Source: Mesorhizobium sp.
GTDB lineage: Bacteria > Pseudomonadota > Alphaproteobacteria > Rhizobiales > Rhizobiaceae
Length of the DNA: 64,000 nt
Assembly: GCF_005063415.1 (NCBI RefSeq)
Contig: NZ_SUEG01000004.1
Coordinates: forward strand, 1-64,000
Direction: 5' to 3'
The notes under the pieces are model-generated. The model saw nothing but the letters and a program-made list of their open reading frames with translations. It did not search any database and was not told the DNA's origin. Positions 1 to 15,245 of this stretch are shown here, one piece after another. Position numbers and translations under genes: made by a program. Every line of letters starts with the position of its first letter. Within the stretch, counting starts at the first letter, position 1.

Positions 1-585
1 TCATCTCGCTTTCAGGCAGGAATGCGATACATGCCGGCGGCAAGGAAGCGCGGCGCCGAAGCCACTTTCGATATCTCCGCCGACCTGACCGAACTCGGCC
101 AGACCGGCACGACCGTCGTCTGCGCCGGGGTTAAGTCGATCCTCGATATTGCGAAGACGCTGGAATATCTGGAAACTCAGCGCGTGCCGGTGATCGCCTA
201 TGGGAGCGATGATTTTCCGGCTTTCTACACCCGCTCCAGCGGGCTCAAGGCCGATCATCGCCTCGACACGCCCGACGAGATCGCGCGAGCCATGCTGCTG
301 CATGACGAGATGGAATCCGGCACCGGCATTCTCGTCGCCAACCCTATCCCCGAAGCGGACGCGCTCGATCCTGCGTTCATCGACGGCACGATCGCAGCGG
401 CCGTGGCTGAGGCCGAGAAGCGCGGCATCGGGCGCAAGGAACTAACGCCGTTTCTGCTCGCCCGCATCAATGAGCTTTCGCAAGGCCGCAGCCTGAAGGC
501 CAACATCGCGCTGGTCCGCAACAACGCCGCGCTCGCCGCCCGCATTGCGGTGGCGCATGCTGAATTGAAGAGCGCGACCAGATAG
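1..585 (+). CDS. psuG: Pseudouridine-5'-phosphate glycosidase, 3' part (5' end outside window)
   Basis: The enzyme family cleaves pseudouridine 5'-phosphate reversibly to uracil and ribose 5-phosphate in the cytoplasm. About 194 codons are visible of a family that is usually near 300 residues, so the N-terminal third lies before base 1. The frame is open to base 1. Recognisable blocks are FDISADLTELG, VVCAGVKSILDIAKTLEYLE, VIAYGSDDFPAFYTRSSG and GILVANPIPEADALD, all characteristic of PsuG/IndA. An oddity is that the glycine-rich TGGIGGVHRG signature expected just before FDISADL is not present. The residues there read RYMPAARKRGAE, about four residues shorter than expected, so either the first ~60 bases carry errors or the gene is damaged. 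It converges on the FAD oxidase with a 35-bp gap. Confidence 0.85.
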   Translation, partial: SSRFQAGMRYMPAARKRGAEATFDISADLTELGQTGTTVVCAGVKSILDIAKTLEYLETQRVPVIAYGSDDFPAFYTRSSGLKADHRLDTPDEIARAMLLHDEMESGTGILVANPIPEADALDPAFIDGTIAAAVAEAEKRGIGRKELTPFLLARINELSQGRSLKANIALVRNNAALAARIAVAHAELKSATR

Positions 586-620
586 AGGCAGCACCCCGCC
601 AGCGCTACCGGCCTTCGATT

Positions 621-2021
621 TCAGCCCGGCGCGAGGTCGAAGATGCGCCCGGCATTGAGGATGTTGTTCGGGTCGAAAGCTGCTTTCAAGCGGCGCATAG
701 CCGCGATCTCTGCATCGCTGCGCACCAGATGCAGCCATTCCTTCTTGTCGAGGCCGATGCCATGTTCGGCCGAAACGCCACCGCCAGCGCCGGCGACACC
801 GCGGTAGACGCCGCTGTATGCGGCCGCCGGATCCACGGTGCGGACCTGATAATGCAGATTGCCGTCGCCGAGATGGCCGAAGACGTAGATGTCTGCGCCC
901 CAGTCGATGGCCTTGATGGCGGCTTCTGTTTCGCGCAGGAAAGTCGCCATTTTCGCCAGCGGGATGCTGACATCGACGCCAATCAGGCCTGCCGTCGAAA
1001 ACAGGAAACGGTTGGCCTCTTCTCGCACCGCCCAGAGCGCCCGGAATTCGCGCGGCGATTGCGAGACGACCACATCGTCGATCACGCCATCTTCAACCGC
1101 CTGCATCAGCACCGCGGCAAAACGTTCGCCGTCGCGGTCGGGCTCGCTGCCCTGTATCTCGGCAAGCACATAGACGGGCGAGCCGGCGGGCAGCGGCGCC
1201 GGCGCCTCCATTCCGGCGATCATGGCGTCATAGAGCGGTGCGAAATTCACCTCATAGGCCGACAGCAAGGGCCCGAGCTTCCGCCTGAGCAGCGCAAGCA
1301 ACGTGATCGCTGCGTCCAGCGAAGCAAGCGCGCAGAAGGCATTGATCTCGGTGGCTGGCTTCGGATGCAGCCGCAGGCATGCGCGCGTGACCACGCCGAG
1401 CGTGCCCTCGCTGCCGATGAACAATTGGCTGAGGTCGTAGCCGGAGTTGTCCTTCGCCAAACCCTTGAGCGAGGTCAGGATACTGCCGTCGGCAAGCACC
1501 GCTTCCAGGCCAAGCACCTGCGCGCGGTACATGCCGTAGCGCAGCACGCGCATGCCGCCGGCATTGGTGGCGACATTGCCGCCGACCGTGGCCGTGCCGC
1601 GCGCTCCGATGTCGACGCCGAACAGCAAGCCGGCCTCATCGGCGGCGTCCTGCACCGTTTGCAGCGGCGCGCCGGCCTCGGCGATGATGGTCGCCGCCTC
1701 GCGGTCGGGAGCCTCGATCGCCGTCATGCGCTCCAGCGACAGCACCGCTTCGCCGGCCTGAATGCGCGCAGCACCCGCGAGTCCGGTCCGGCCGCCTTGG
1801 ATGACAAGCCTTTGCCCCACCTCGTTGCACAGGCGCAATATGTCCGACACCTCGCCGGCAGTGCGCGGTCGCAGCACGACCTCTGGCCGCGCACCGGTCT
1901 TGCCGTCGGGGTCTTCCCTGTAACGCGGCCCGGCCTCATCGGCCGAGACGATCGCCGACCGATCCAGCCGACCCTCAAGTCGCGACAGAAGCTCGGCGGT
2001 CAGCGGGGACAGAGCGCTCAC
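621..2021 (-). CDS. FAD-binding oxidoreductase, glycolate oxidase / D-2-hydroxyacid dehydrogenase family
   Basis: A flavoprotein of the vanillyl-alcohol-oxidase superfamily that would oxidise a D-2-hydroxyacid such as D-lactate, glycolate or D-2-hydroxyglutarate to the 2-oxoacid. The FAD-binding half shows VIQGGRTGLAGAA and TVGGNVATNAGGMRVLRYG. The C-terminal FAD-oxidase half shows FGHLGDGNLHYQV and SAEHGIGLDKKEWL, in the order normal for the family. I place the start at a GTG at 2021, giving about 466 residues beginning near VSALSPLTAELLSRLEG. The frame stays open to an ATG at 2117, but that extension does not look like family sequence, and neither start has a good ribosome-binding site. It lies downstream of the MoxR-vWA operon on the same strand after a gap of about 190 bp. 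The exact substrate cannot be read from the sequence. Confidence 0.85.
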   Translation of the reverse strand: MSALSPLTAELLSRLEGRLDRSAIVSADEAGPRYREDPDGKTGARPEVVLRPRTAGEVSDILRLCNEVGQRLVIQGGRTGLAGAARIQAGEAVLSLERMTAIEAPDREAATIIAEAGAPLQTVQDAADEAGLLFGVDIGARGTATVGGNVATNAGGMRVLRYGMYRAQVLGLEAVLADGSILTSLKGLAKDNSGYDLSQLFIGSEGTLGVVTRACLRLHPKPATEINAFCALASLDAAITLLALLRRKLGPLLSAYEVNFAPLYDAMIAGMEAPAPLPAGSPVYVLAEIQGSEPDRDGERFAAVLMQAVEDGVIDDVVVSQSPREFRALWAVREEANRFLFSTAGLIGVDVSIPLAKMATFLRETEAAIKAIDWGADIYVFGHLGDGNLHYQVRTVDPAAAYSGVYRGVAGAGGGVSAEHGIGLDKKEWLHLVRSDAEIAAMRRLKAAFDPNNILNAGRIFDLAPG

Positions 2022-2210
2022 GGATGCGATTGGCGCGCATACAGTGATGCGACGCGAGCGGTGATAGGTGAGGATTGTGAGCGCGTCCGGAGATGATTTT
2101 CGCTGCAAATAAAGCATGCGGAAAACCCGCCAAAACCGCAGCCGGTTGCTATTGTCATGCGCCGCTCCTGTAATACGCCGACGATAGGCACGGGCTGCTG
2201 TTTGTCAAAC

Positions 2211-3461
2211 CTATATGGCAGTTGGTGACGGGCTCAACGCCTGCGTTTCGGCGCGGACCACCTTGATGTCGGCGCCTGCCGCCCATGCTCCGATATCGTC
2301 GCGGCGTAAGGCCGCAGCCATCATGTCCGGAAACAGATCCGGCGTGCAGGCGAAGACGGGAATACCAAGGGCTGCTACCGAGCCTGCCATTGTGGGATCG
2401 TAGCCGGGCCGGCCCTGATCGGTCAGCGCCAGAAGCACGACAACATTTACGCCGGATCGAACCAGCGCTGCCAGTCGCCGCAGCAGGTCCTGGCCATTGC
2501 CGCCTTCATAGAGATCGGTGATCAGCACCAGATGCGACTTGGTGGGCCGTTCGATACGGTCGGCGCAATAGGCGACCGCCTGATTGATGTCCGTGCCGCC
2601 GCCAAGCTGCACGCCGAACAGCACCTCGACCGGATCGCTGAGCTCTTCGGTCAGGTCGACAACCGCCGTATCGAAGCAGACAAGCTTGGTGCGCACAACC
2701 GGCAGCGAGGCCATCACCGCCGCGAAAATCGAGGCGTAGACAACCGAGCTTGCCATCGAGCCGGACTGGTCGACACAGAGAACGACTTCATCCAGATCGA
2801 CAAGCCGGCGCTGCTTGCGCATGAAGCCGACCAGTTTCTCCGGCACGATGGTCTTATGCTCGGGTTGATAGTGGCGAAGGTTCGCCGAAATAGTGCGCTG
2901 CCAGTCGATATCGCGTGCACGCGGGCGGTTGGTTCGTCTCGATCGATCGAGCGCGCCGCGTATCGCCTCGGCGGTCTTCTGCTCCAGCTTCTGCATCAGC
3001 TTGCCGACGATATCGGCAATGATCGTCCGGGCAATGTCCTTGGTCTTGGCCGGCATGACCGAGCGCAGCGAAATCAGGTCGGCGACGAGATTGACGTCCG
3101 CCTCGATCGCCTTGAGGAATTCCGGTTCCATCAGCATCTGCTTCAGGTCCAGCCGTTCGAAGGCGTCCTTCTGGACGATCTGGACGACCTGCGCCGGAAA
3201 GAAGGAGCGGATGTCGCCCATCCATTGCGCGACGCGCGGCGCCGACCGGCCAAGGCCGCCGCGCCGCTTGCGCGGGTCGGCAGAAGCGGCGCTAACGCCG
3301 TCGCCGTAGAGAGCGTCGAGTGCCGCCGAAAGCCGTTTGTCGTCGCTGGAAAGTGCCCCAGACGTTTCGTCATCGGCGCCGATCGCCAGTCGCCAGCGGC
3401 GCTCCCTTCCGCCATCGGCAGTGAGCGGGCCGGGTTCGTTCATTTCGGCCTCGTCATCCAT
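2211..3461 (-). CDS. vWA-domain protein, last gene of MoxR-vWA operon
   Basis: A cytoplasmic von Willebrand factor A protein of about 416 residues. The C-terminal half is the vWA domain with an intact metal-ion-dependent adhesion site, DQSGSM at about residues 231-236 (DxSxS), a downstream GGGTDIN threonine loop and LVLITDLYEGG. The N-terminal half is helical and charged, resembling CoxE-like vWA proteins. In characterised pairs such as CbbQ/CbbO or cobaltochelatase subunits, a vWA protein works with a MoxR-type ATPase to remodel or insert metal into a target. Here the ATPase is encoded two genes upstream. The ATG at 3461 overlaps the preceding DUF5682 stop codon by 8 bp and has GGAG upstream. 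ATG 3443 is an alternative. The client protein is unknown. Confidence 0.88.
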   Translation of the reverse strand: MDDEAEMNEPGPLTADGGRERRWRLAIGADDETSGALSSDDKRLSAALDALYGDGVSAASADPRKRRGGLGRSAPRVAQWMGDIRSFFPAQVVQIVQKDAFERLDLKQMLMEPEFLKAIEADVNLVADLISLRSVMPAKTKDIARTIIADIVGKLMQKLEQKTAEAIRGALDRSRRTNRPRARDIDWQRTISANLRHYQPEHKTIVPEKLVGFMRKQRRLVDLDEVVLCVDQSGSMASSVVYASIFAAVMASLPVVRTKLVCFDTAVVDLTEELSDPVEVLFGVQLGGGTDINQAVAYCADRIERPTKSHLVLITDLYEGGNGQDLLRRLAALVRSGVNVVVLLALTDQGRPGYDPTMAGSVAALGIPVFACTPDLFPDMMAAALRRDDIGAWAAGADIKVVRAETQALSPSPTAI

Positions 3462-5712
3462 TGCCGGTTTCTCCGTTGAGCAATGATCCAAGCAGCCCCA
3501 GGTGCCGGCGCCATGCCTCGCCGCCATCCGGCGTCGGCGTCAGGCCAGCCGGCAAGCGCGCGGCGCGGCCGAGGACCGCTTCGATCAGCCGGCGGCGTTC
3601 CATGCTGTCCAGATTGGAAAAGACGCGGCGCAGCAACGGCAGGTGCGCGATGAAAGCATCTTCGTCCAGGGATCTGAGCCACCCATCGACCGCACCGCGC
3701 AGACCCTCGTCATAAATCAGCCGTTGACCGGCTGTGCTGAAGAAGCCTTCGAAGAACCCGGCCGCTTCAGTGACAGGCGTCCCCGGTGACAGGCGTCGCC
3801 CGAGCAGCCCGGCAGCGGCTTCGGCGGACAGGCGACCGGCTTCATACAGCAGGTGTGCGGCGCACCCGGCCAGCAGCGCCGTCGACCGTGACGCCTCCAG
3901 CACGGCCGCCAGCCCGTTGCGCCACCCATCCAGCACGTCTTGGCCGGGTTCGACCAGCCTGATCGCCTCATTGGCCTTGCGCATCGCACCAACCAGTGTC
4001 GCGGCGGCCTGCTCGTCCAGATCGCGCGCAGCATAGGGAAGCGCGATCGCACCTTCGACGATCAGCCGCTCCATGAGGCCGGACAGCCGGTCCGTCTGCG
4101 TCTTGCGGGCCTCGCCGTAGCGGATGATTTCGGCGAGCGGCGGCACCGACGCCAGGATCTCCAGGCATTCACTGTTGCGCGCCGCGCGAGCCTCCAACGC
4201 CGTGAGGCCGGCAGTAGATGCTTCCGACAAGTTTGCCGTGATGGCGCTCTGGACCAGTCCCGCAAGCGTATCGAGCGTCGCCGCAGCATTGATCATCTGG
4301 ATCAGGCGACCGTTGGCAGCCTTTTCGATGGTCGGACCGTAAATCAGGTTCTCGACCAGACGAACGGCATATTCCGCTTCCCACGCCAGGGTCCACCGCT
4401 CGCGGAAGGTGCCACGGCTGCGACCGGCATCGGTCAGTCTGCCCCAATGCACACCGAGCACGTTCAGCCGATGCAGCAATGTCGAGCGGAACAGCCCGCT
4501 TTCGCTTCGCAGGTCGACCGACAGTTCCCGTTCCAGCGCCTCAGGCTTCAGGCGCGCCGCCCTCTGGTTACGCTGGAGATCCTCGATCAGCGGCGCCAGC
4601 GGTGTGTCGGGCGGAATTTCCCCGACGTCCGAACCCAGAAGCAGCTCGGCCTCGACCAGCCCCCACAGCAACGCTTCGCCATTGAAGAGGGCGGCGATCG
4701 CGGCGTCGCGCAATTCCTCAAATCCGGGTTTCGGTCGTTCGCGAATCGCGGCAAGCGTCCGGGCGAGCCGCTCCGCTTCGATCAGCGAGGCGGTCGAGAT
4801 CAGGTGACCTTCCGCCCGCAGCACGGCGGCGATCGTCGCAAGCCACAGGGTCGCCGCATCGCGCCGGCCGCGCGTGCGCCAGAGATGCTTGCACCAGCCC
4901 GGTGCGACGACGCCCGCGCCATAGCCGTATTCCAGCGCCAGACGCGGTCCCGTCCATGGCGCCCATGTCATTGTGGTCTTGCGCCGCGCAATTCCCTTGA
5001 TCAGGACCTGATCGTTTTTTTGAGTGTGGGTGGTCTGCAGCGCCGGCACATGCCATGCCCCGCAGACGACGGCGATCGGCCCGTCGAACTCCTTGCGCGC
5101 CGCGGCGATTTCGAGCCGCATATGCGCTTCGCGTTTTGCTTCGAGCTGCGCGATCGGACCCTCGCCATCCCGCAGTGTCGTCATCGCATCGGCGATGGCG
5201 GCAAATATGGGGCCGGGTTCCGGGTTCTGTTCAATGATGTCCGACCACCAGCTTTCGCCGTCCTCATAACCGGCGGCGTGCGCCAGCATGGCTATCGGAT
5301 CACGCGGTAGCGGAGCCGCGTCACCATTCTCGGGGGCTTGGATAGCTTCGGTCGCATCGGCGTCCTCCGCGCCACCGATCGCAGCAGTGGTGAATCGTGC
5401 CGATGACGGCAGGTCGATAAACTGCAACGTCGCCTTATTGCCCACAGCCCACAGCACCGCCTGGTATTCGGGCGAGAACTCGGCGAAAGGCCAGAAGCTT
5501 GTCGAAGCCGGATCCTCTTCCGGATAGCAAAGGAGCGCCACCGGCGGCTGCATTTCGGGGCGGGCCAGCATGGGCAGAAGCTCAGAGGCGTCGATCGGCC
5601 CCTCGATCAGCACGGCGACCGGGTTCAAATCCTGCAGTGCCTGCACCAGGCTGTCGGCGGAACCCGGCCCGTGATGGCGTATCCCGAAATAGGCAATGTC
5701 GCCGTGGCCCAT
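3454..5712 (-). CDS. DUF5682 family protein (MoxR-vWA operon)
   Basis: A 752-residue soluble protein with no signal peptide or membrane segment. The N-terminus YFGIRHHGPGSADSL (His13/His14), followed by VAVLIEGPIDA (Glu37) and later VVCGAWHVPAL (about 215-224), matches the DUF5682 family. The spacing of a His motif, a Glu-Gly motif and a second His motif resembles the TraB/ChaN/erythromycin-esterase-like fold, which suggests a hydrolase or metal/haem-handling active site. That relation is my inference, not established. The remaining ~500 residues are mostly helical and unassigned. It starts 4 nt after the MoxR stop and overlaps the vWA start by 8 bp, so it is probably made stoichiometrically with both. 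It is the largest and least understood member of the operon. Confidence 0.85.
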   Translation of the reverse strand: MGHGDIAYFGIRHHGPGSADSLVQALQDLNPVAVLIEGPIDASELLPMLARPEMQPPVALLCYPEEDPASTSFWPFAEFSPEYQAVLWAVGNKATLQFIDLPSSARFTTAAIGGAEDADATEAIQAPENGDAAPLPRDPIAMLAHAAGYEDGESWWSDIIEQNPEPGPIFAAIADAMTTLRDGEGPIAQLEAKREAHMRLEIAAARKEFDGPIAVVCGAWHVPALQTTHTQKNDQVLIKGIARRKTTMTWAPWTGPRLALEYGYGAGVVAPGWCKHLWRTRGRRDAATLWLATIAAVLRAEGHLISTASLIEAERLARTLAAIRERPKPGFEELRDAAIAALFNGEALLWGLVEAELLLGSDVGEIPPDTPLAPLIEDLQRNQRAARLKPEALERELSVDLRSESGLFRSTLLHRLNVLGVHWGRLTDAGRSRGTFRERWTLAWEAEYAVRLVENLIYGPTIEKAANGRLIQMINAAATLDTLAGLVQSAITANLSEASTAGLTALEARAARNSECLEILASVPPLAEIIRYGEARKTQTDRLSGLMERLIVEGAIALPYAARDLDEQAAATLVGAMRKANEAIRLVEPGQDVLDGWRNGLAAVLEASRSTALLAGCAAHLLYEAGRLSAEAAAGLLGRRLSPGTPVTEAAGFFEGFFSTAGQRLIYDEGLRGAVDGWLRSLDEDAFIAHLPLLRRVFSNLDSMERRRLIEAVLGRAARLPAGLTPTPDGGEAWRRHLGLLGSLLNGETGNG

Positions 5713-5716
5713 GGCG

Positions 5717-6820
5717 TCAGATCGCTGCGTTCAGCGCCGCGTAATAGCCGGCATAGTCGGGCCGCTTCTTGAGCACCGTTTCCAGATATTCCTCCAGCAC
5801 CACCTTGTCCTGCACCGGATCCTTCACGATCGCGCCGACAAGGCTGGCGGCGAGACCTTCGGCGCCGAGCTTGCCACTGTCGAACCACGCCGCCTGGCTG
5901 AGCCCGCCAACCATCGTGGCGATCGCTTCTGCAGTCGACAGCGAGCCGGAAGGCGTCTTCAGCGTCACCTTGGCGTCGGCAGTCGCGCCGGAGCGCAATT
6001 CGCGGAAGATGGTCAGCACACGGGCGATCTCCTCGCCGACGTTTTTCGGCACCGGCAGGTCGAGTCCGCCAGCCATCTCGTCGACCCGTTTGGAGACGAT
6101 CGCCACCTCTTCGGCCATGTCTTCCGGCAATGGCAACACCACGACATTGAAGCGACGCTTGAGCGCCGAGGAGAGCTCGTTGACACCTTTGTCGCGGTTG
6201 TTTGCCGTGGCGATAATGTTGAAGCCGCGCTGGGCGTAGATCGAGGTGTTCAATTCCGGGATCGGCATCATCTTTTCGGAAAGCACGGTGATCAGCGTGT
6301 CCTGCACGTCCGAGCCCATGCGGGTCAGTTCCTCCAGCCGGCAGAGCTTGCCGTTCTGCATGGCTCGGTAGAGCGGCGTCGGCACCAACGCTTCCTGGCT
6401 CGGGCCCTTTGCCAGTAGCTGCGCATAGTTCCAGCCATAGCGGATCTGGTTCTCGTCGGTGCCGGCCGTGCACTGCACGATCAGCGTCGAGTCGCCCATG
6501 ATGGCGGCGGCAAGATGTTCCGACACCCAGGACTTGGCGGTTCCGGGAACGCCGAGCAGCAAGAGTGCTCGGTCGGTGGCGAGCGTCGCTACCGCGGTTT
6601 CCATCAACCGGCGGCGACCGACATATTTTGGCGTTACCAAGGTGCCGTCACCGGCCTTCCCGCCTAGCAGATAGGTCAGCACAGCCTGTGGCGAGAGGCT
6701 CCAGCCGGCAGGCCTCTGCCGGTCGTCATCGCGCGCCAGCGCCTGCAATTCAGAAGCGTAGGCCTGCTCGACCGGGAGGCGGATGGCTGCGTTCATTTTG
6801 CTGTTCTCCGGATTGGTCAT
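5717..6820 (-). CDS. MoxR-type AAA+ ATPase
   Basis: A cytoplasmic AAA+ ATPase of about 367 residues from the MoxR branch. Walker A is GVPGTAKS at about 90-97. The Walker B region reads LCRLEELTRM at about 159-168, with Glu where most MoxR proteins have Asp-Glu. Sensor 1 is IIATANNRDKG, and the arginine-finger region is ALKRRF. Family members form hexamers that act on or with vWA-domain partners as chaperones. The ATG at 6820 overlaps the previous stop as ATGA. A second ATG at 6796 (MNAAIRLP) has a better ribosome-binding site (GGAGA) and may be the true start. It sits in the middle of the five-gene operon, between DUF5691 and DUF5682. Confidence 0.92.
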   Translation of the reverse strand: MTNPENSKMNAAIRLPVEQAYASELQALARDDDRQRPAGWSLSPQAVLTYLLGGKAGDGTLVTPKYVGRRRLMETAVATLATDRALLLLGVPGTAKSWVSEHLAAAIMGDSTLIVQCTAGTDENQIRYGWNYAQLLAKGPSQEALVPTPLYRAMQNGKLCRLEELTRMGSDVQDTLITVLSEKMMPIPELNTSIYAQRGFNIIATANNRDKGVNELSSALKRRFNVVVLPLPEDMAEEVAIVSKRVDEMAGGLDLPVPKNVGEEIARVLTIFRELRSGATADAKVTLKTPSGSLSTAEAIATMVGGLSQAAWFDSGKLGAEGLAASLVGAIVKDPVQDKVVLEEYLETVLKKRPDYAGYYAALNAAI

Positions 6821-8250
6821 GTGTTGGTTCCAGGCCCCGCCAGTGATGCGTTGAGACGTAGAAGCCCGAGTGAAGGAGCCGCGGGCGGCACGCCCGCCTC
6901 GACCATGTCGTCGATCAATTTCGCTGCCGTGGTCGCGGTGGCAAGGAAGCCGATCGTCTCCAGTACATCGTCGAGACCCCGCCGCGCGGCGTCGTCTTTT
7001 CCGCCGGCGGCGGAACGCAGTGCGGCGAGCGCCTGTCCATTCGTCAGGTCGTCCCATTCCAGCCAGTCGGCATCAATGCCTTCCGCCAGGTTGATCATGC
7101 CAAGATAAGTCGTCTCCTTGAGGATCAGCCTGATGAGGACACGCTTTCTGCGGCTGTCCAGGCGCGGCATGAGGTGAAGCACGAACAGCGCCGGTTTGCC
7201 GCCTTCGGCGACAAGCGTATCCGCCATCTGCGCAAGGGCGGCTTCGCTCCCTGAGGCGGCGACCATTCGTGCGATCAGGATGTCGGCTTTATTGTCGGCG
7301 CCGAATTGCCAGCCTGCTATGAATTCGGCTTCCGTAGTGTTGAACCGTTCGATAAGGTCGACGAGGTTGCATATCTCGAACAGTTCGGCGCGGCGCTGCT
7401 CCTGCGCTTGGGATTTTAGTTTTGCCGGAGTGTAGATCGTCCGGCGGCGGATGAAGCCCGATCTGCCTTCAGTGATAAAGGCGGCGAGCTCGGCTACGGG
7501 ATCGTCCGGTCCACCGTCGCTCGGGCGAACGTGCTCTCCTAATCTTGCCAGCAGCCGGCCAGCTAGTTCGCGCACCTTGCCGGACCTGTCGGCGGAAAGG
7601 CTTTTCAGGAAAGGCGCGTCCTCGGCACTCAGGCCGAAGCGCATAAGCTCGACCAGCGCAAGCCTGACTTCCGCCGGTTCGCCCGACGCCTTGGCTTCGA
7701 TCAACATTCGAGCCGATGTCGGGTCGGTACGGCGCATATCGGCAAGGGCCAAGCGTCGCGCGGCGGGATAGAACTCATCCCAGTTTTCCGCCGTCAGTTT
7801 CTCTCGTGGGGCATGTCTTTCCCCGTCCACGCTTGCTTGCCAGTCTACCCATGGCGCGTAGACGTCAGGACAGGTCTGATCCGAGGGCATCCAGTCCATG
7901 GGATGGAGCACAAAGCCGCGGCTGGCGACGAGCGCCGCCACGCGTGTCTTTCGCCTCGCGTCGGCGACGTGCTTCAGAGCGGCTCTCAACAACGGGCGAA
8001 ATCGTGCCGGCAGAATGGGCAGGACAAGTCTGGGCAGCGGCGGACGACGCTTGAGTGTCGTCGGCGCGGCCGGCCGCAGCGCGACGTCGAGCGCTTGTGC
8101 TGCGATTGCCAGGAGCCGGCGCTCCTGTTCGTCGGGACTTGCACCGCCGGCGATTGCCTTCCATCCGGCCGGAGCCAGATCGAACGTAGCACCGCCGGTG
8201 ATCCAGCAATCGCGCATTGCCGCCAGGCCTGTTTGCTCGCTTTCGTTCAC
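6817..8250 (-). CDS. DUF5691 family protein (MoxR-vWA operon)
   Basis: A 477-residue soluble protein that I recognise as DUF5691-like mainly from its place between SWIM and MoxR genes. It begins with GTG at 8250, whose GTGA overlaps the SWIM stop, and ends overlapping the MoxR start (ATGA). The middle and C-terminal parts are strongly helical with recurring Leu/Ala-rich segments (for example VRLALVELMRFGLSAEDAPFLK and VRELAGRLLARLGE, quoted in part), reminiscent of HEAT-type helical repeats. The N-terminal portion has a proline- and arginine-rich stretch around residues 60-85. No catalytic motif is visible. A scaffold or substrate-recruiting role for the ATPase is plausible, but is inference only. 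Confidence 0.75.
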   Translation of the reverse strand: MNESEQTGLAAMRDCWITGGATFDLAPAGWKAIAGGASPDEQERRLLAIAAQALDVALRPAAPTTLKRRPPLPRLVLPILPARFRPLLRAALKHVADARRKTRVAALVASRGFVLHPMDWMPSDQTCPDVYAPWVDWQASVDGERHAPREKLTAENWDEFYPAARRLALADMRRTDPTSARMLIEAKASGEPAEVRLALVELMRFGLSAEDAPFLKSLSADRSGKVRELAGRLLARLGEHVRPSDGGPDDPVAELAAFITEGRSGFIRRRTIYTPAKLKSQAQEQRRAELFEICNLVDLIERFNTTEAEFIAGWQFGADNKADILIARMVAASGSEAALAQMADTLVAEGGKPALFVLHLMPRLDSRRKRVLIRLILKETTYLGMINLAEGIDADWLEWDDLTNGQALAALRSAAGGKDDAARRGLDDVLETIGFLATATTAAKLIDDMVEAGVPPAAPSLGLLRLNASLAGPGTNT

Positions 8251-9647
8251 GCCAGATCAAGCCTCCCAAACTCGCTTTGCGCCGCCAGAAGCTCAAGCCG
8301 GGCGCCGTTCCAGAGCGCTGCCGTGGCCGCAAGGTCGAGGCCGAGCAAGGTTTGATCTACCGCGCCGGCGATCGGCAAGGCGATCCCCTGCGGTTCATCC
8401 TCCGCCTGCCACCATGCCGTGCCCCGATCGTCGAGCAGGATAGCGCCGGGCGGCAGCATGAGGGGACAATCGGCGATCCAGGGCGCGGCGTCCTGATGGG
8501 AAGCATGCGTGGCGAGCGGATCCTTCGCGGTGCCAAAAGCAAAATCGGGCCACGCGCCGGGCGCAACTTCCCCAGTGCGCTCCGCCACCAGGGCGCGGAG
8601 CGGCATGCGTGATGGATAAAACACCAGTCGGGCATTGAAACGGTCGCCTGGTGCAAAAGCGTTGGACCGGCGCCCGGCCGAAGCCGGGAAAAAGTCGAGC
8701 AGCAAGGCAAATTGCGGGGTGGCGCTCTTCAAATCGAGCAGCCAGGTCGAATGGCTGACCAGACCATCGCGGCGGCTCTCGATCTTCTCGCCGAGAACTT
8801 CCCACAGGCTTTCAACCTGTCTTGCATCCGGACTGCTGAGAACCTGTTCGCGGGGTTCAGACGTTGAAACGAGGCGCTTCAGCTCGGGGTCGTCGGGCGC
8901 CGCCCGCCACGCCTTGGCCAGCAGCACGAGCTTGCCGAGCTCGCGGATTGCCGCATCAGACCGTTCCTCGCTGCGCAGCCCCATCAGCCGCGACGGAATC
9001 TCGTCGATACGGCCGGCGAGCGCGGCTGCCTTCATATCGACCAGCCGCGCAGCAATCCGCCGGCAACGGTCGCTGCTGGCGTCGACAAACCCGGACAGAC
9101 CGAGCCGTAACTGGTCGGCAATCCACTGGTCAAGCTCATCGAGCCCAGCCGACACTGCTTCTCGTGTGCTTTCCGCCCGCTTGCGCTGCGCCGCCTCGCG
9201 ACGCTCCTCCGCCGCGATGTCTTCAACGGCGGTGCTCTCGTCGGCTTGTGCGGCTTCGCCAATGCGCTTGGCTTCCGCGCCGGGTACCGGTTGCGCCGGC
9301 TGAGGCGTTGTCTTCCTGCGTCGGCCAAGCCAGTCATTCACCCATTCCGGCGTGGTATTGGCAGCGGCAAAACTGGCTGGCGCGGTGGCAGCAATCCACA
9401 TCAGGGCCAGCGTGTGCTTGCATGGGAATTTGCGCGAGGGACAGGTGCATTTGTAGCCGTGATCGCCCGTGTCGACCACCACTCGATAAGGATTGGAGCC
9501 GGAGCCCTGGCATTCGCCCCAGATGAGCGCCTGCTGCTCATGCTTTTCGAGCCGCGGCCAGTTCGTTCGTTTGGTGAGCTTGGAGGCGGCGCTCAGCGAC
9601 GCCTGATCGGGAGCAAGCGCCTCAATGGTTTTCAGATCGAATTCCAA
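8247..9647 (-). CDS. SWIM zinc-finger protein, first gene of MoxR-vWA operon
   Basis: A protein of about 466 residues carrying a SWIM zinc finger close to the N-terminus: Cys67-x-Cys69-x6-Cys76-x-His78 within YKCTCPSRKFPCKHTLALMW. SWIM fingers bind DNA or mediate protein contacts. The following region is rich in Ala, Arg and Glu and probably partly coiled coil (AEERREAAQRKRAESTREA). I place the start at TTG 9647, which has GGGGAGA nine bases upstream and begins LEFDLKTIEALAPDQ. An ATG at 9761 in frame adds 38 residues that look non-coding. It is the promoter-proximal gene, so its regulation sets that of the whole SWIM-DUF5691-MoxR-DUF5682-vWA operon. Its role in the complex is unknown. Confidence 0.87.
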   Translation of the reverse strand: MEFDLKTIEALAPDQASLSAASKLTKRTNWPRLEKHEQQALIWGECQGSGSNPYRVVVDTGDHGYKCTCPSRKFPCKHTLALMWIAATAPASFAAANTTPEWVNDWLGRRRKTTPQPAQPVPGAEAKRIGEAAQADESTAVEDIAAEERREAAQRKRAESTREAVSAGLDELDQWIADQLRLGLSGFVDASSDRCRRIAARLVDMKAAALAGRIDEIPSRLMGLRSEERSDAAIRELGKLVLLAKAWRAAPDDPELKRLVSTSEPREQVLSSPDARQVESLWEVLGEKIESRRDGLVSHSTWLLDLKSATPQFALLLDFFPASAGRRSNAFAPGDRFNARLVFYPSRMPLRALVAERTGEVAPGAWPDFAFGTAKDPLATHASHQDAAPWIADCPLMLPPGAILLDDRGTAWWQAEDEPQGIALPIAGAVDQTLLGLDLAATAALWNGARLELLAAQSEFGRLDLA

Positions 9648-9699
9648 GCCGCGTTTCTCCCCGCCCCGACGCAGTATAGATAGCGGTTTGTGAAGAATT

Positions 9700-9705
9700 A
9701 TTATA
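9700..9705 (-). promoter_or_regulatory. Possible -10 element of the SWIM/MoxR-vWA operon
   Basis: Read on the minus strand this is a perfect TATAAT, lying about 53 nt upstream of the TTG start at 9647 in an AT-rich patch. No convincing -35 hexamer is seen at the usual spacing, so this is a weak call based on one hexamer. Confidence 0.3.
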
Positions 9706-9839
9706 GCTCTGGCATGGTGAAGATCGGCATGCCTTCGCCCTGTTTTGACGGGCCAGGACATGCCTCAGACGCAAATGGTGTCGACTGTTATTCGGCAGAC
9801 AGAACGGGCTTTGATAGCCGGCGGCCTAGGCGGAAGCGT

Positions 9840-11120
9840 TCAGGCTCTGCCCTTCAGGAACTCGATCACCATCGCCGCGGTCCAGGTGAAGCGGCTGCCG
9901 CCGAGCGGTTCGCCGGTGAGCGGGTCGTAATATTCGGCGAAGCCGCTCTCGGCGATCAGCTCGAGACTGGATTGCGTGATCCGTTGTGCGATTTGGCTGT
10001 GGCCGGCAGCGGCTAGGCCGTCGGCGATCAGGTAATTGACCACCAGCCAGACCGGGCCGCGCCAATAGCGCTTGGCATCGAAGCGGGGATCATCGAGCTC
10101 ATGCGAGGGGACGATGTAACGCGCTTTGCCAGCGATGCGCTCGATCGTTGCAGCGATCGCCGCTGCCCGGTTTTCCGGAATGGCCGAAAACACCGGCAGA
10201 ATGCCGCCGACCGATGCGCTGTCAACGTGCTTTCCGGCCACTCGGTCGAAACAAATGTACTGGCCATGTGTGTCGCTCCACAGCCGTTCCATCGTCGAAA
10301 GCCCCTTTTCGGCACGGGCGCGGTTGGCTTCTGCGATTTCGGTTTCGCCAAGTGCCTCGGCGAGATCGGCAAGATCGGCGGCGGAACGGATCAGGATGGA
10401 GTTGAAGCCGGGATCGACGACCTGGAATGGCGAGGCGTCGTGCAGCTGGGCGTTGTCCCAGCCAAGCCCGCGGAAATGCTGCAGCAGCCAGATATAGCGG
10501 TCATACTGTGCCTCGGTTGGACGATGCGCCGGATCAGCGTGCTGGATGTCGCGGCGGGTGTAGGGCTCGACGCCTTCGGTCGGCACGCGCTCGAACGCCT
10601 CGTCCCAGTCGATCGAGTTGTCGCGGCCGGACTCCCATGGGTGGATTATGGCGACCAGCCCTTCGCCGTTCGGGTCGCGATTTTCGTAGAACCAGCGGTG
10701 CCAGGTATCGATTTTTGGCAAGAGCGCGCGGGCGCGCGCGGCCGCCAGTTTCTTGTCCTTGGCCCGGTCGAACAGACGGCGCACGGCAAAGCCGGCGACC
10801 GCCGGCTGGGTGATGCCGGAGGTGGCAGTCGGGCGGTTGGTTCGCCAGACCTCCGGCCCGGGGAAATAGCTGTCGTTCCAGACATGGAAGACGATGTGCG
10901 GCACCATGCCGTCTGGCCACTGGTGGGCGAACAGCGTGTCGATCTCGGTCCAGGCCCGAGCCTCATCGTAGTGGGCAAGACCGAGCGCGGTCAGGCAGGA
11001 ATCCCAGTTCCACTGGAACGGGTAGAGGCCCTTGGTCGGTATGGTGTAGGTGCCTTGGTCGTTTTCCCTGAGTACCTCTACGGCGCGGGCGATGGTTTCG
11101 TCGACAGCAAGAGATATCAT
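9840..11120 (-). CDS. GH63-like glycoside hydrolase (mannosyl/glucosylglycerate hydrolase type)
   Basis: A cytoplasmic (alpha/alpha)6-barrel glycosidase of 426 residues. Family-type motifs are LYPFQWNWDSCLTALGLAH near residue 35 and AIIHPWESGRDNSIDWDEAF near 170. The HPWESGxDNS segment is typical of the GH63 mannosylglycerate/glucosylglycerate hydrolases, which are also 420-450 residues. YWRGPVWLVVNYL near the C-terminus is the usual late barrel motif. No signal peptide is present, so the substrate must be imported first. It is the last gene of the LacI-SBP-permease-permease-ATPase operon, 33 bp after the ATPase, which fits hydrolysis of the transported glycoside inside the cell. The substrate could be glycosylglycerate or another small alpha-glycoside, and I cannot distinguish these. 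Confidence 0.82.
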   Translation of the reverse strand: MISLAVDETIARAVEVLRENDQGTYTIPTKGLYPFQWNWDSCLTALGLAHYDEARAWTEIDTLFAHQWPDGMVPHIVFHVWNDSYFPGPEVWRTNRPTATSGITQPAVAGFAVRRLFDRAKDKKLAAARARALLPKIDTWHRWFYENRDPNGEGLVAIIHPWESGRDNSIDWDEAFERVPTEGVEPYTRRDIQHADPAHRPTEAQYDRYIWLLQHFRGLGWDNAQLHDASPFQVVDPGFNSILIRSAADLADLAEALGETEIAEANRARAEKGLSTMERLWSDTHGQYICFDRVAGKHVDSASVGGILPVFSAIPENRAAAIAATIERIAGKARYIVPSHELDDPRFDAKRYWRGPVWLVVNYLIADGLAAAGHSQIAQRITQSSLELIAESGFAEYYDPLTGEPLGGSRFTWTAAMVIEFLKGRA

Positions 11121-11153
11121 CGGGGCGTTCGTACTTTCAGGATCGAAGGGGGA

Positions 11154-12194
11154 TCAAAGGGCGTTGGTGGTTTCGGGATCGAACCAGCGGATGCGGTCGG
11201 GTTTGGGCAAGAGCCGCAGGTGATCGCCGACAGCGACCGTGACATTCGATTCAAGGATGGCCCGGAACAGGCCGCCCTCGACATCGCAGGTGACCAGCGT
11301 GTGCGGTCCGAGCGGCTCGACAACGCGCACGGTGGCGTGCAGCCCCTCGGTGCCGGCGTCGACATCCTCGGGGCGAATGGCGAATTCTATCGTCTGCTTG
11401 TCCGATTTGGGGCCGGGCAGCGTCAGCCCGGCGACGGTCCAGCTACCGTCTGCCGCCTTCGCGGCCGGGATGAAATTCATCGGCGGGTTGCCGATGAACG
11501 AGCCGACGAAGCGTGCGGCCGGATTGCGATAGACCTCTACCGGCGAGGCGGCCTGGACGATATGGCCCTGATGCATGACGGCGATGCGGTCGGCGAGGCT
11601 CATCGCCTCGACCTGATCGTGAGTGACATAGATGGTGGTGGTCTTGGACGCGGCGAGCACGCCCTTGAGCTCGGCGCGCATTTCGAGCCGCAGCAGCGCA
11701 TCGAGGTTCGACAGCGGCTCGTCCATCAGGATCACGTCCGGCTCCATCGCAAGTGCCCGAGCGACTGCCACGCGCTGGCGCTGGCCGCCGGAAAGCTGGC
11801 CCGAATAGCGCTTCAAAAGCTGCTCGATGTGCATGAGCTCCGCGGTGCGGTTGACGCGCCCCTCGACCTCCTGCTGCGGCAGCTTCTTCATGCGCAGGCC
11901 GAAGGCGATGTTCTCGAACACGGTCAGGTGCGGAAACACGGCGTAATTCTGGAACACCATGGCGATACCGCGTTCGCGCGGCGGCAGATGGTCGACGCGA
12001 CGGCCGCCGATCCAGACCTCGCCCTGGCTTGGCGTTTCCAGCCCGGCGACGATCCTCAGCAGCGTCGTCTTGCCGCAACCCGAGGCGCCAAGCAGCACCA
12101 TGAATTCCTGGTCGGCGATGGTCAGGTCGATCGAATGCAGTGCGGTGAAGCTGCCGAAGCGCTTTGCCACCTGTTTGATGGCGATCTCAGCCAT
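11154..12194 (-). CDS. CUT1 sugar ABC transporter ATP-binding protein (MalK/UgpC-like)
   Basis: Energises import of a sugar or glycoside. 346 residues. Walker A is GASGCGKTT, Q-loop VFQNYAVFP, signature LSGGQRQR, Walker B VILMDEP, D-loop SNLDA and switch His VTHDQVEAM. The C-terminal ~110 residues form the OB-type regulatory domain (FAIRPEDVDA). All catalytic residues are intact, so a homodimer with two working sites is expected. This contrasts with the paired ATPases of the polyol operon at 21-23 kb. Placed 21 bp after the second permease and upstream of the glycosidase. Confidence 0.93.
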   Translation of the reverse strand: MAEIAIKQVAKRFGSFTALHSIDLTIADQEFMVLLGASGCGKTTLLRIVAGLETPSQGEVWIGGRRVDHLPPRERGIAMVFQNYAVFPHLTVFENIAFGLRMKKLPQQEVEGRVNRTAELMHIEQLLKRYSGQLSGGQRQRVAVARALAMEPDVILMDEPLSNLDALLRLEMRAELKGVLAASKTTTIYVTHDQVEAMSLADRIAVMHQGHIVQAASPVEVYRNPAARFVGSFIGNPPMNFIPAAKAADGSWTVAGLTLPGPKSDKQTIEFAIRPEDVDAGTEGLHATVRVVEPLGPHTLVTCDVEGGLFRAILESNVTVAVGDHLRLLPKPDRIRWFDPETTNAL

Positions 12195-12215
12195 CGGCGT
12201 TCTCTTTTGTGCGCG

Positions 12216-13058
12216 TCATCGGTTGGCGATCCCCCACATGGCGAACAGATATTTGCGAACGGCGAAGATGAAGATCAGCGCCGGGATGACCAGTGCCGCG
12301 CCACCGGCGAATTTGAGGTAGAGCGGCGATTCGCCGAGGCTCTGCAGCAGGAAGGCGGTCAGCGTCCGGTTCTCGATGGTGAGCACGGCGGCGGCAAACA
12401 CCTCGTTCCAGGAGATGGTGAAGGCAAATACCGCCGATGCCGCGATACCCGGCAGCGCCAGCGGTAGAATGATTTTTCGGAATGCCTGCAATCTCGTGCA
12501 GCCGAGCGTCCAGGCCGCTTCCTCCAGCTCGACGGGAATTCCGGAGAAGAGCGAGAAGGTGATCAGCACCGCAAACGGCAACGCCAGTGTGGTGTGGACC
12601 AGCGCCAGCCCGATCGCGGTGTCGTCGAGGCCGGTGCGGATGAACATCACCGCCAGCGGCAGTGCCAGCAGCGGCAGCGGGAAGGCGCGGGTCATCAGCA
12701 CGAGGAAACGGAACGTTTCCTTGCCCGGGAATTCGAAGCGCGACAGCGCGTAGCCCGCGGGTGCGCCGAAGCCGATCGAGAGGAGCATCGTCAATGTGGC
12801 GACGAGGACGGAGTTCCACAGCGCCCTGGCGACGCCGGCGAAATTGATGAAGAAAGAAAGGCTGCCGAAATCGAATGACGGGAAGAAGCGCTTGGGAAAG
12901 GCGGTCACCTCTTCCGGCGACGACAGCGCGTTGACGATCAACAGATAGATCGGCAGCAGCACCCAGACGCAAAGCAGGATCACGGTGGCGACCAGCAACC
13001 AGTTGCCGGCTTTGCGGGCCTCAGGCGCGGCGATCGACAGCTCCGCGACCGTGCTCAT
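12216..13058 (-). CDS. Sugar ABC transporter permease (MalG-like)
   Basis: Inner-membrane permease of about 280 residues with six predicted membrane helices. The EAA cytoplasmic loop that docks the ATPase is seen as VELEEAAWTLGCTRLQAFRKI. The ATG at 13058 overlaps the stop codon of the first permease as ATGA, indicating translational coupling. Partners are the MalF-like permease upstream and the ATPase downstream. Confidence 0.92.
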   Translation of the reverse strand: MSTVAELSIAAPEARKAGNWLLVATVILLCVWVLLPIYLLIVNALSSPEEVTAFPKRFFPSFDFGSLSFFINFAGVARALWNSVLVATLTMLLSIGFGAPAGYALSRFEFPGKETFRFLVLMTRAFPLPLLALPLAVMFIRTGLDDTAIGLALVHTTLALPFAVLITFSLFSGIPVELEEAAWTLGCTRLQAFRKIILPLALPGIAASAVFAFTISWNEVFAAAVLTIENRTLTAFLLQSLGESPLYLKFAGGAALVIPALIFIFAVRKYLFAMWGIANR

Positions 13059-13900
13059 ATCCGCGCCTCCTTCGGTACACGCAGCACCCGCAGGAAGAAC
13101 AGCGTGAAGCCGATCGAGATGGCGAGGATGAACAGCGCCATGGCGGCGGCGACATTGCGGTCCTGCAGCGTGAACTGCCAATTGTAGGTCTCGCCCATCA
13201 GCACCGGCAGATTGGTTCCGCCGAGTGCTGCAACCACGGCAAAGACCTCAAAGGCAAGGATGACGCGCAGGATGATCGCCGTCTGCAGGCTTGGGCGCAG
13301 CAGAGGCAGCGTGATCTTGATGAAGCGCTTCCACGGGCTGGCGCCGAAGACCTCCGCCGCCTCGTAGTATTCCCGGGGAATGAGCCCCATGCCGGCGACC
13401 AGAATGACCATCATGATGGCGGTCGCACGCCAGATCTCGGCCAGCGCCACGGCAATGAAGATCGTCAGCTTGCTCTGGTAGCCGAGGAACATGACCGGCC
13501 TGTCGATGACGCCGAGATTGGAGAGCAAGGTGTTGAGGAAGCCGGACTGGTCGAAGATGGCGAGCCAGATCAGCCCGGCGGCGAGATCGGAGATGCCGAG
13601 CGGAATAGCAAAGATGTAAAGCGCGGCGCTGCGCCCGGTTTCAAGCCGCGACACCATCGTTGCCATCAGCAACGCCATGACCAGCTGGATGGGCACGACT
13701 ACGGCGCTGAGAAGCAGCGTGTTGCGAACGGTGACCGGAAACTTCCAGCTGCCCGCCATGGTGCGGAAATTGTCGAGCGTAAAGCCGCCGTCGCGGGTGA
13801 ACGCCTCGAAGGCGACCAGCGCGAACGGAAAGAGGAAAAAGACACAGAGGAACAGCGTCGCCGGCGTCAGCAGCAGATAGGGCAGGGCCTTGCCGTGCAT
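13055..13900 (-). CDS. Sugar ABC transporter permease (MalF-like)
   Basis: Inner-membrane permease of 281 residues starting MHGKALPYLLLTPATLFLC, with about six membrane helices. The EAA-type loop reads YYEAAEVFGASPWKRFIKITLPLL. It follows the binding-protein gene after a 76-bp gap that holds a stable hairpin, and its stop overlaps the MalG-like permease start. It lacks the large extra periplasmic loop of enteric MalF, as is usual for rhizobial CUT1 permeases. Confidence 0.92.
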   Translation of the reverse strand: MHGKALPYLLLTPATLFLCVFFLFPFALVAFEAFTRDGGFTLDNFRTMAGSWKFPVTVRNTLLLSAVVVPIQLVMALLMATMVSRLETGRSAALYIFAIPLGISDLAAGLIWLAIFDQSGFLNTLLSNLGVIDRPVMFLGYQSKLTIFIAVALAEIWRATAIMMVILVAGMGLIPREYYEAAEVFGASPWKRFIKITLPLLRPSLQTAIILRVILAFEVFAVVAALGGTNLPVLMGETYNWQFTLQDRNVAAAMALFILAISIGFTLFFLRVLRVPKEARI

Positions 13901-13933
13901 GGAGCGCTCTCTATTCGAAGCTTCAAAAGGGGT

Positions 13934-13965
13934 GGGCGCCCGGCGCGCTGGAAATCCGGACGCCC
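13934..13965 (-). other. Intercistronic stem-loop after the binding-protein gene
   Basis: The arms GGGCGCCCGG (13934-13943) and CCGGACGCCC (13956-13965) pair with a single mismatch around a 12-nt loop, 12 bases past the binding-protein stop codon. There is no U-tract. Hairpins here commonly protect the upstream mRNA from 3' decay and reduce read-through, giving more binding protein than permease. Confidence 0.6.
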
Positions 13966-13976
13966 GGGCAGGATTC

Positions 13977-15245
13977 TTAATCGACCGGGCAGGCGCCTTG
14001 CGAGGGTTTGTCGGGCGCCCAGCACGGCGCTTTCGCCTGGTCGGTGATCGCCTTCAGCGCCGTTGCTTGTTCGTCGAGCACGCCGTGCACATCCTCGCCG
14101 CCGAGCACGATGCGCTCGAAGCTGTCGGTGTAGATCTGATTGAACTTGCCGCCGAGGCCGCCAAGTCCCATTGGCAGCAGCGCCGGCAGCGCATCCGGGG
14201 CACCGGTCATGGTGGCGATCACCGGGCTGAAGGCCTTTACCGAGGCCGGCATGTCGTCGGGCAGCTTAACGTCGACGATGGGGAAGAAGTTTGTCGCCTT
14301 CAGCGTCGCGATCTGGGTTTCCGGTTTCAGCATATAGGCGACCAGCGCCTTGGCCTTGTCCATGTCAGGCGAGGTCTTCGGGATAGCGACACCGGCCACC
14401 ACCGGCATGTAGCCGCGGCCTGCCGGTCCGGCCGGCGCCGGGAAGGCGACGAAGTCATCGGGTTTCTGGTTGAAGGCGTCGGCGAGGCGCGCCACGTGAT
14501 CGAATGCCACCCAGACTTCGCCGGTTAGCAGCGGCTCCTGCATGAAGGCGTAGTTGGTCGAATTCGGGTTGGTGTATTGCCACAATTCCTTGAACTTGTT
14601 CCACGCCGTCTCGGCCTCGGCCGAGCGGAACTTCGTCACCATCGAGCCGGTATACGATGGAAGGAGAAAACCCTCGAAGAAACGGTGCTTCAGCCCTTTC
14701 GGGCCGGCCGGAAAACCGAATTTGGGCGAACCGGTCTTTTCAGCGATGTTTTTCGCCCACTCGATCAGTTGGTCATAATTGATGGTGTTGAGATCGGTCC
14801 CGGCCGGCAGATATTGCAGCGCCTGCTTGTTGGCCGCCATCAGAAAGTTGGCCTGCATCCATGGCAGGTACTTCTGCTCGCCGGTGCCGAGCATGCCGAG
14901 CTTCTTGTAGGTCTCGTTGACCTTGACGCCACCGAGATCGACGCCAGAGAGATCGACAAGGTTCGCGCCGACGGTGGAGAAGTCTCCGTGCAGGCCGCCG
15001 AGCACGCCTATGGTGCCGGAGCCGGCTTGCAGTTCGGCCTGAAGGCGGGTGAGCCAGGGCCCGTCCTCGGCGACCTGATAGTCGACCTGGCCGTCAAACC
15101 CCTTCAGCACCTCACCGCGCATTTTTTGCGTCTCTTCCACAGGTCGCGCCTGTGTCGACCAGAACAACACCTGCTGGGCTTGCGCTGCACCGGCAGCGAG
15201 CGACAGCACCAGCACGGCGCCTGCCAATCTCCTCAACGCATTCAT
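13977..15245 (-). CDS. ABC transporter periplasmic sugar-binding protein
   Basis: A 422-residue extracellular solute-binding protein of the family-1 (CUT1) type. A Sec signal peptide is clear: positively charged MNALRRL, a hydrophobic core, and probable cleavage after AAQA near residue 23. The mature protein includes family blocks such as GAVIGTLGGLHGD-like loops and FPAPAGPAGRGYMPVVAGVAI. It is the second gene of the LacI operon, 36 bp after the regulator, and determines import specificity for the GH63-like enzyme's substrate. The ligand is not known. Confidence 0.9.
   Translation of the reverse strand: MNALRRLAGAVLVLSLAAGAAQAQQVLFWSTQARPVEETQKMRGEVLKGFDGQVDYQVAEDGPWLTRLQAELQAGSGTIGVLGGLHGDFSTVGANLVDLSGVDLGGVKVNETYKKLGMLGTGEQKYLPWMQANFLMAANKQALQYLPAGTDLNTINYDQLIEWAKNIAEKTGSPKFGFPAGPKGLKHRFFEGFLLPSYTGSMVTKFRSAEAETAWNKFKELWQYTNPNSTNYAFMQEPLLTGEVWVAFDHVARLADAFNQKPDDFVAFPAPAGPAGRGYMPVVAGVAIPKTSPDMDKAKALVAYMLKPETQIATLKATNFFPIVDVKLPDDMPASVKAFSPVIATMTGAPDALPALLPMGLGGLGGKFNQIYTDSFERIVLGGEDVHGVLDEQATALKAITDQAKAPCWAPDKPSQGACPVD

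Follow-up and report, generated by a model that had tools for sequence, protein, structure and literature searches.

CbbQ/CbbO, NorQ/NorD and RavA/ViaA are pairs of an AAA+ ATPase of the MoxR family and a von Willebrand factor A (vWA) protein with a metal-ion-dependent adhesion site (MIDAS). MoxR proteins are considered to act in the maturation of particular complexes, each with its own, and YehL is one of their seven named subfamilies (PMC3893208, in part). Here we describe a five-gene operon with a YehL-type MoxR gene in the window, that is, the whole 64,000-nucleotide stretch of Mesorhizobium sp. DNA that was analyzed (contig NZ_SUEG01000004.1, positions 1 to 64,000). The operon encodes, in order of transcription, a SWIM zinc-finger protein, a DUF5691 protein, a MoxR ATPase, a DUF5682 protein and a vWA protein (Table 1). 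Unlike the three described pairs, its MoxR-vWA pair is kept together with a predicted hydrolase, DUF5682, and with proteins of SWIM-OB (oligonucleotide/oligosaccharide-binding) and HEAT type. The operon is a deeply conserved module. We consider it an evenly balanced proposition that its products form a YehL-type MoxR-vWA motor that serves its own TIKI-type hydrolase, with the SWIM-OB and HEAT-type proteins recruiting the substrate.

The five coupled minus-strand genes recognized in the initial annotation are all present with intact frames, and the Pfam assignments agree with them. The SWIM and DUF5691 genes are joined by a 4-nt GTGA overlap and the DUF5691 and MoxR genes by a 4-nt ATGA overlap; MoxR and DUF5682 are separated by a 4-nt gap, while DUF5682 and vWA share an 8-bp overlap. 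The longest open reading frame (ORF) of the SWIM gene begins at 9761, and the TTG at 9647 was taken as its start. The sequence directly before this TTG looks conserved, by eye, among Mesorhizobium relatives, which are the nearest among those retrieved. The single putative promoter reported earlier was not recovered, as the single site from a strict sigma-70 scan of 9600-9860 lies on the plus strand, and no minus-strand site was found. No match above an NCBIfam cut-off was obtained with any of the five proteins.

To place the operon among its relatives, a DUF5682 alignment was scanned against one genome per species. At least 576 relatives were confirmed, and the 80 highest-scoring loci, a set biased towards the window type, were kept. 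Gene order was counted in the 70 of these with enough flank (the other 10 were excluded), with no requirement for tight spacing. The order SWIM-DUF5691-MoxR-DUF5682-vWA on one strand is found in 66 of the 70 loci, which span nine phyla, and the medians of the intergenic gaps lie between -9.5 and 10 nt. The DUF5682 tree, built without L039, L040, L057 and L092, covers ten phyla as judged by record titles, nine of which are those of the 66 order-conserving loci. The tenth is represented by a Myxococcota bin (L076) with the same gene order in a locus too short for the count. A further phylum is added by a Deinococcus plasmid, on which the genes follow this order and a small annotated ORF separates MoxR from DUF5682. 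The expectation of one multi-gene system linked across phyla is borne out by these counts: the genes co-occur well beyond close relatives, and in the loci examined DUF5682 and SWIM genes are not usually found without the MoxR-vWA pair.

Table 1. The operon genes and the variable block that contains them, in window coordinates.
Feature	Coordinates	Strand	Description
SWIM protein	8247..9647	minus	466 aa; TTG start; Pfam SWIM PF04434, E 2.1e-5
DUF5691 protein	6817..8250	minus	477 aa; GTG start; PF18944, E 3.6e-21
YehL-type MoxR AAA+ ATPase	5717..6820	minus	367 aa; ATG start; AAA_5 PF07728, E 1.5e-38
DUF5682 protein	3454..5712	minus	752 aa; ATG start; PF18934, E 1.6e-208, 695 bits
vWA (CoxE-like) protein	2211..3461	minus	416 aa; ATG start; VWA_CoxE PF05762, E 9.8e-56
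Block present or absent as a unit	2027..9839		between a FAD-linked oxidase gene and a glycoside-hydrolase gene

The four exceptions to the order are of different kinds. In two cyanobacterial loci (L057 and L075), DUF5682 stands alone, without MoxR, vWA, SWIM or DUF5691 in the stretch examined, and no SWIM match was found in either genome; solo use of DUF5682 or incomplete bins are possible explanations. In L094, SWIM and DUF5691 lie on the opposite strand. In the actinomycete Phytohabitans maris (L085, 6089-8938), SWIM and DUF5691 form one ORF of 949 aa in the one assembly, apparently a natural fusion if the assembly is correct, and this single ORF suggests physical contact between the two proteins. 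Apparent fusions of MoxR to DUF5682 in L010 and L012 were rejected, as the start offset between the long ORFs and the MoxR ORF that they overlap is not divisible by three, which puts them in another frame. The DUF5682 of a Bifidobacteriaceae bin (L034) groups beside Mesorhizobium in the tree, pointing to a mis-binned contig or a transfer.

The initial annotation saw no obvious client enzyme in the operon. This view needs revision: because DUF5682 resembles TraB/TIKI hydrolases and keeps catalytic-type residues, the operon itself encodes a candidate enzyme. The AlphaFold2 model of DUF5682 (mean predicted local distance difference test score, pLDDT, 89.9; predicted template modeling score, pTM, 0.88) alternates strands and helices in the first ~260 residues, and the remainder after ~260-270 is mostly helical and HEAT-like. 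Models were compared as whole chains in both Foldseek and VIA, so that single domains are less well covered. When the DUF5682 model was re-aligned by VIA to 968 chains, the best match was 8b6h_DQ (Z 9.8, root-mean-square deviation, rmsd, 4.7, 187 aligned, residues 1-233). The complex in the 8B6H paper includes a TraB-family subunit (PMC10060162, in part), which chain DQ is presumed to be.

Profile comparison points in the same direction. Local hhalign of DUF5682 against a TraB/GumN profile (25 rows in the comparison; 24 rows in alignment A6) gave 81% over the front of the domain, and 66.6% with the tool's own alignments. Among the controls, the SWIM, DUF5691, vWA, MoxR, YehQ-like and DUF4132 families scored 0.1-2.2%, the reversed alignment scored 1.4%, and none of 20 column-shuffled decoys exceeded 0.3%. 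This front alignment places G10, H13 and E37 of DUF5682 on G89, H92 and E118 of TraB. The rear half alone gave 55%, at the corresponding place in TraB, with R194, G218 and H221 falling on R288, G311 and H314; here the same six families reached no more than 0.8%, ChaN 2.5%, the reversed alignment 2.3% and the decoys no more than 0.3%. All six TraB positions are near-invariant in the TraB profile. DUF5682 and the TIKI/TraB/PrgY/GumN superfamily share the elements GxxH, E, R and GxxH in the same order, alongside a putative fold match of the model. DUF5682 differs in its large HEAT-like extension, its retention with MoxR and vWA, and a Pfam placement below threshold. A global-mode hhalign value of 89.9% was discarded, as a column-shuffled decoy scored 99.6%.

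The putative active-site residues hardly vary. In an alignment of 76 DUF5682 sequences (A2), residues E37, D100, R194, E195, M198, G218, H221, G263, Y264 and G267 are unchanged in all 76, and H13 is kept in 75, the remaining sequence being truncated. This alignment omits 13 rows by choice, mostly near-identical, as well as L001, L014, L015, L039, L040, L057 and L092, and the invariance counts are without L040 and L057. Part of the conservation at R12-H14 and S80-E82 stems from the retrieval patterns themselves; RHH and SPE are kept in 9 of 9 sequences of alignment A1, which were found without these patterns. The N-terminal domain (~1-270) is predicted to resemble TraB/TIKI hydrolases and to keep their H-E-R-GxxH residues, and DUF5682 is predicted to be a hydrolase of the TraB/TIKI fold, most likely a peptidase. 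Among the enzymes of the TIKI family is an endopeptidase whose site is of the 2His/2Glu kind, and the superfamily also has inactive members, one of them without the 2His/2Glu motif (PMC6254334, in part).

The SWIM protein contains the zinc-finger motif CxCx(n)CxH at C67, C69, C76 and H78. Residues C67, C69, P70, S71, R72, K73, P75, C76, K77 and H78 (C.CPSRK.PCKH) are invariant in 60 aligned sequences, an alignment made without the partial L060 and L076. Its AlphaFold2 model (mean pLDDT 90.6, pTM 0.73) is laid out as a zinc-finger module (~1-96), a helical middle and a tandem OB-like C-terminal half (~271-461). Residues 1-96 superpose on ZSWIM8 (9rwz_N; Z 10.5, rmsd 2.3, 93 aligned), residues 271-364 on SSB/PriB (Z 5.4-6.5), and residues 267-461 on 3rnu_A, 7ypo_A and 8x70_C (Z 5.4-5.7). 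Forty-seven of the 50 listed VIA rows fall on the C-terminal half, with titles that are mostly SSB, PriB, RPA and similar. SSB, PriB and RPA are OB folds. Because the protein is predicted to combine a module like that of ZSWIM8 with OB-like folds in tandem, its ligand is probably nucleic acid or nucleoprotein. DUF5691 is a probable HEAT-type scaffold, as HEAT_2 is detected in 9 of 64 members scanned, though not in the window's own. A relationship of DUF5691 to DUF4132 was considered and found no support (1.2%).

The MoxR-vWA pair named in the initial annotation stands, since both proteins keep their motifs. The AAA+ MoxR core (Walker A/B, sensor and arginine finger) is present in the window's MoxR family, with PGTAKS, R.EELTR, ATAN.rD and ALkRRF each kept in at least 85% of 87 sequences. 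The vWA motifs DQSGSM, GGGTDI and D.yEG are kept in at least 85% of 83 sequences, and the MIDAS is complete. Among the seven MoxR subfamilies, two were compared: the window MoxR is 21% identical to RavA over a short stretch of 180 columns, versus 41% to YehL over 369 columns. The YehL-type neighborhood, with DUF5682 and vWA genes, is also present in the window.

From sequence similarity and gene order, E. coli yehL-M-P together with yehQ is a rearranged relative of the window operon. The MoxR-DUF5682-vWA order is kept, with a SWIM gene nearby; YehM is 28% identical to the window DUF5682, and YehP is 35% identical to the window vWA protein over 372 columns. The yeh locus differs in having no DUF5691 gene, in carrying its SWIM gene after vWA, and in the WGR and DUF4132 genes upstream. 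The order in E. coli K-12 is yehF (WGR), the pseudogene yehH, yehI (DUF4132), yehK, yehL, yehM, yehP and yehQ, and the start of yehI matches a profile derived from yehF, not Pfam WGR. Full-length homology of YehQ to the window SWIM protein could not be established (non-significant BLAST E of 0.78; hhalign 8.4%). The arrangement DUF4132-MoxR-DUF5682-vWA-YehQ-like is found in 5 of 7 loci of this branch, with some weak YehQ scores.

The two branches have distinct partners. In a sample of 299 Pseudomonadota genomes, DUF5682 is present in 12, DUF5691 is above cut-off in 6 (in 8 at E 0.001 or better) and DUF4132 is present in 9. The 6 genomes with DUF5691 above cut-off are exactly those with window-type DUF5682, and all 7 with E. 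coli-type DUF5682 carry DUF4132; one genome has both DUF5682 types, and 2 DUF4132 genomes have no DUF5682. DUF4132 is also found in or directly beside window-type operons in 6 of 16 Bacteroidota loci (by profile, with Pfam used on one). No DUF4132 match was obtained in the genome of the window. The E. coli gene is nearly universal: yehM matches 5,284 of 5,426 E. coli genomes, and in 5,166 of these the match covers at least 80% of the length. In one strain (H1, NZ_CP137737.1), yehM is annotated in two pieces around an IS5-family transposase gene. The initial annotation regarded the operon as a candidate for undescribed biology. That description has to be tempered, given a relative in E. coli and a MoxR type that already has a name, yet the conservation is stronger than could be told from the window. 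No mention of DUF5682 or DUF5691 was found in the open-access literature (subscription papers fall mostly outside this scope), and YehL occurs at most three times per paper in the open-access papers found.

In the mechanism proposed here, the MoxR ring would be coupled through the vWA protein as a MIDAS adaptor, by analogy with CbbQ/CbbO or RavA/ViaA, and would spend ATP to remodel or load a substrate. This substrate would be recruited by the SWIM-OB and DUF5691 proteins, and DUF5682 would cut it, or would itself be switched on by the motor.

A number of observations weigh against this interpretation. The activity, the metal and the complex of a five-protein machine are all predictions. For the hydrolase assignment, the local matches to TraB span just 53 and 37 columns, and single-sequence Pfam scans gave a TraB match in 2 of 44 DUF5682 members (alignment A5, 44 of the 76 rows), with a best E of 0.097. 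G10 is glycine in 71 of 76 sequences and proline in 4; this exception weakens the TIKI reading, which the local run on the rear half strengthens. Foldseek with the DUF5682 model returned nothing below E 0.001, its list being filled by the helical part, and a PDB sequence search with the N-terminal domain found no relative, only two irrelevant matches at E >1. A PDB search with the TraB profile gave 15 matches that are, by name, mostly designed helical proteins, so that 8b6h_DQ could not be linked to TraB by sequence, and its identity as the TraB-family subunit is itself presumed. ChaN (8.3%) and EreA (0.3%), tried as closest relatives of DUF5682, were also weak in hhalign. For the SWIM protein, the OB matches at Z 5.4-6.5 lie below 7-8, the range given by the tool as typical for models that lack a clear match, and Foldseek found nothing below E 0.001 (best E 4.5e-3). 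As regards the fixed unit, single intergenic gaps reach 4,315 bp in order-conserving loci. In four cyanobacterial genomes DUF5682 is displaced from part or all of the set, with a SWIM match elsewhere in two and none in two. Two loci of the E. coli-type branch (L098 and L100) have no vWA gene in the stretch examined, one of them being cut by a contig end.

A different division of labor, which we consider unlikely, is that MoxR-vWA is a maturation chaperone that inserts metal into DUF5682 or activates it, in the manner of CbbQO or NorQD, with SWIM and DUF5691 as scaffold and the enzyme acting alone. This would agree with the role ascribed above to MoxR proteins and with DUF5682 being the one predicted enzyme of the operon, whose predicted active-site residues are so little varied. 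However, it leaves unexplained why SWIM and DUF5691 are retained with the pair, and why MoxR and DUF5682 remain side by side in the E. coli-type branch, where their partners are different. It is somewhat less probable still that DUF5682 is non-catalytic, with a cofactor-binding or structural role, and that the complex scaffolds or helps to assemble some cellular client encoded elsewhere. More than half of the protein is helical and HEAT-like, and inactive members of the TIKI superfamily were mentioned above, but E37, R194, G218 and H221, needless in a pure scaffold, are kept in 76 of 76 sequences.

Within the genus, the operon is patchy. DUF5682 is found in one of nine same-genus genomes sampled, the window's own. 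A second genome (G317, L191:2964-3056) has an empty site, where matches to window positions 49-2026 and 9840-12814 lie 91 bp apart without the operon. In a third (G313, L192:1552-1869), the 3' end of vWA abuts the 5' end of SWIM, a deletion scar, which suggests that an internal deletion removed the operon from that genome. The block has thus been gained or lost as a unit. The adjoining region of the window (9840-15245) holds, by eye, ABC-transporter genes and an MGH1-like glycoside hydrolase, of which the hydrolase alone was scanned, and resembles an ordinary sugar-uptake cluster.

Such patchiness is one reason to consider a role in biological conflict or phage defense, a possibility touched on in the initial annotation. 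The MoxR-vWA ternary conflict systems share the core MoxR-vWA pair with the window (Kaur et al. 2020, PMC7159879, in part), and a weak bpMoxR match was seen (25.6 bits, below the cut-off of 27). Unlike those systems, the window operon has none of their third components by Pfam above cut-off, and neither 'YehL' nor 'SWIM' occurs in the main text of that paper. None of the five proteins matched PADLOC (2023 library). Across 70 of the 80 loci, a set that omits near-identical ones, DUF4132 is the one gene family that recurs immediately next to the core, although a hypervariable effector would escape clustering; other gene clusters around the core are at scattered positions. The five-gene core shows little variation, the E. 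coli relative is near-universal, and matches to the window DUF5682 occur in 36 of 72,556 plasmid records and 1 of 50,697 phage records. Mobility and context argue against a defense role, and a conflict system of the ternary kind is improbable.

A role tied to DNA damage is a lead only. LexA-type boxes and the radiation/desiccation response motif (RDRM) were sought by pattern. LexA control of the window-type operon was rejected, as none of 76 regions has an exact alpha-proteobacterial, gamma-proteobacterial, actinobacterial or cyanobacterial box within up to 300 bp upstream of SWIM. The window has two GTTCN7GTTC sites, which are away from the region upstream of the operon and at chance level. 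Upstream of the first gene in the E. coli-type loci L096, L097, L099, L101, L102 and L015, only yehF (L015, E. coli) was positive, with a one-mismatch CTGTN8ACAG site 9 bp before the start; the 20-kb stretch holds eight such sites versus 5.9 expected. yehF is a row in a table of SOS genes, with transcript values up to 0.8-1.1, presumably log2 (PMC11002266, in part), and molR is among the canonical SOS genes tabulated elsewhere (PMC3978071, in part). In D. radiodurans, the proteins DRA0166 (DUF4132) and DR2173 (WGR) come from loci with DdrO motifs and are reported to be induced by mitomycin in an IrrE/DdrO-dependent manner (PMC8533742, in part). On a D. taeanensis plasmid (L198:4750-4766), the SWIM start is preceded at 19 bp by an RDRM-like palindrome that deviates from the search palindrome at two positions and from the consensus of the paper at 3 of 15. 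At up to three mismatches, 0.40 such matches are expected per 20 kb and 32 of 100 shuffles had one, so that a single match is unexceptional; the notable feature is its position, with a chance of ~2e-4 per 150 bp by simulation, for a single site that was picked post hoc. Two results weigh against the DNA-damage link: the absence of any LexA-type box from the 76 window-type upstream regions, and of any DUF4132 match from the genome of the window.

The yehF box and table row, the DdrO motifs of DRA0166 and DR2173, and the D. taeanensis site are the hints behind a still more doubtful possibility, a damage-induced bacterial machine for removing proteins from nucleic acid. In it, single-stranded or protein-blocked DNA would be recognized by the SWIM-OB protein, and, in the branch with WGR and DUF4132 proteins, these would sense breaks. 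The MoxR-vWA motor would unfold the blocking protein, and DUF5682, as a TIKI-type peptidase, would cut it. Repair of DNA-protein crosslinks by SPRTN and p97/VCP would share only this logic, an AAA+ motor with a single-stranded-DNA-binding module and a peptidase, and we know of no enzyme family common to the two. If true, the clearance machine would be an analogue of eukaryotic p97-SPRTN crosslink repair built from unrelated parts.

Two families of the operon are still DUFs, while YehL is a named subfamily and a relative of the operon is found in nearly every E. coli. What is new here is a concrete reading, in which a predicted TIKI-type hydrolase and a predicted SWIM-OB subunit accompany a MoxR-vWA motor. 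If the TIKI assignment is true, motor and predicted hydrolase would here form one fixed unit, which to our knowledge is unusual for MoxR-vWA systems. With a candidate enzyme whose putative catalytic residues are named, a probable nucleic-acid-binding subunit and a possible regulatory trigger, what was a list of genes becomes experimentally approachable.

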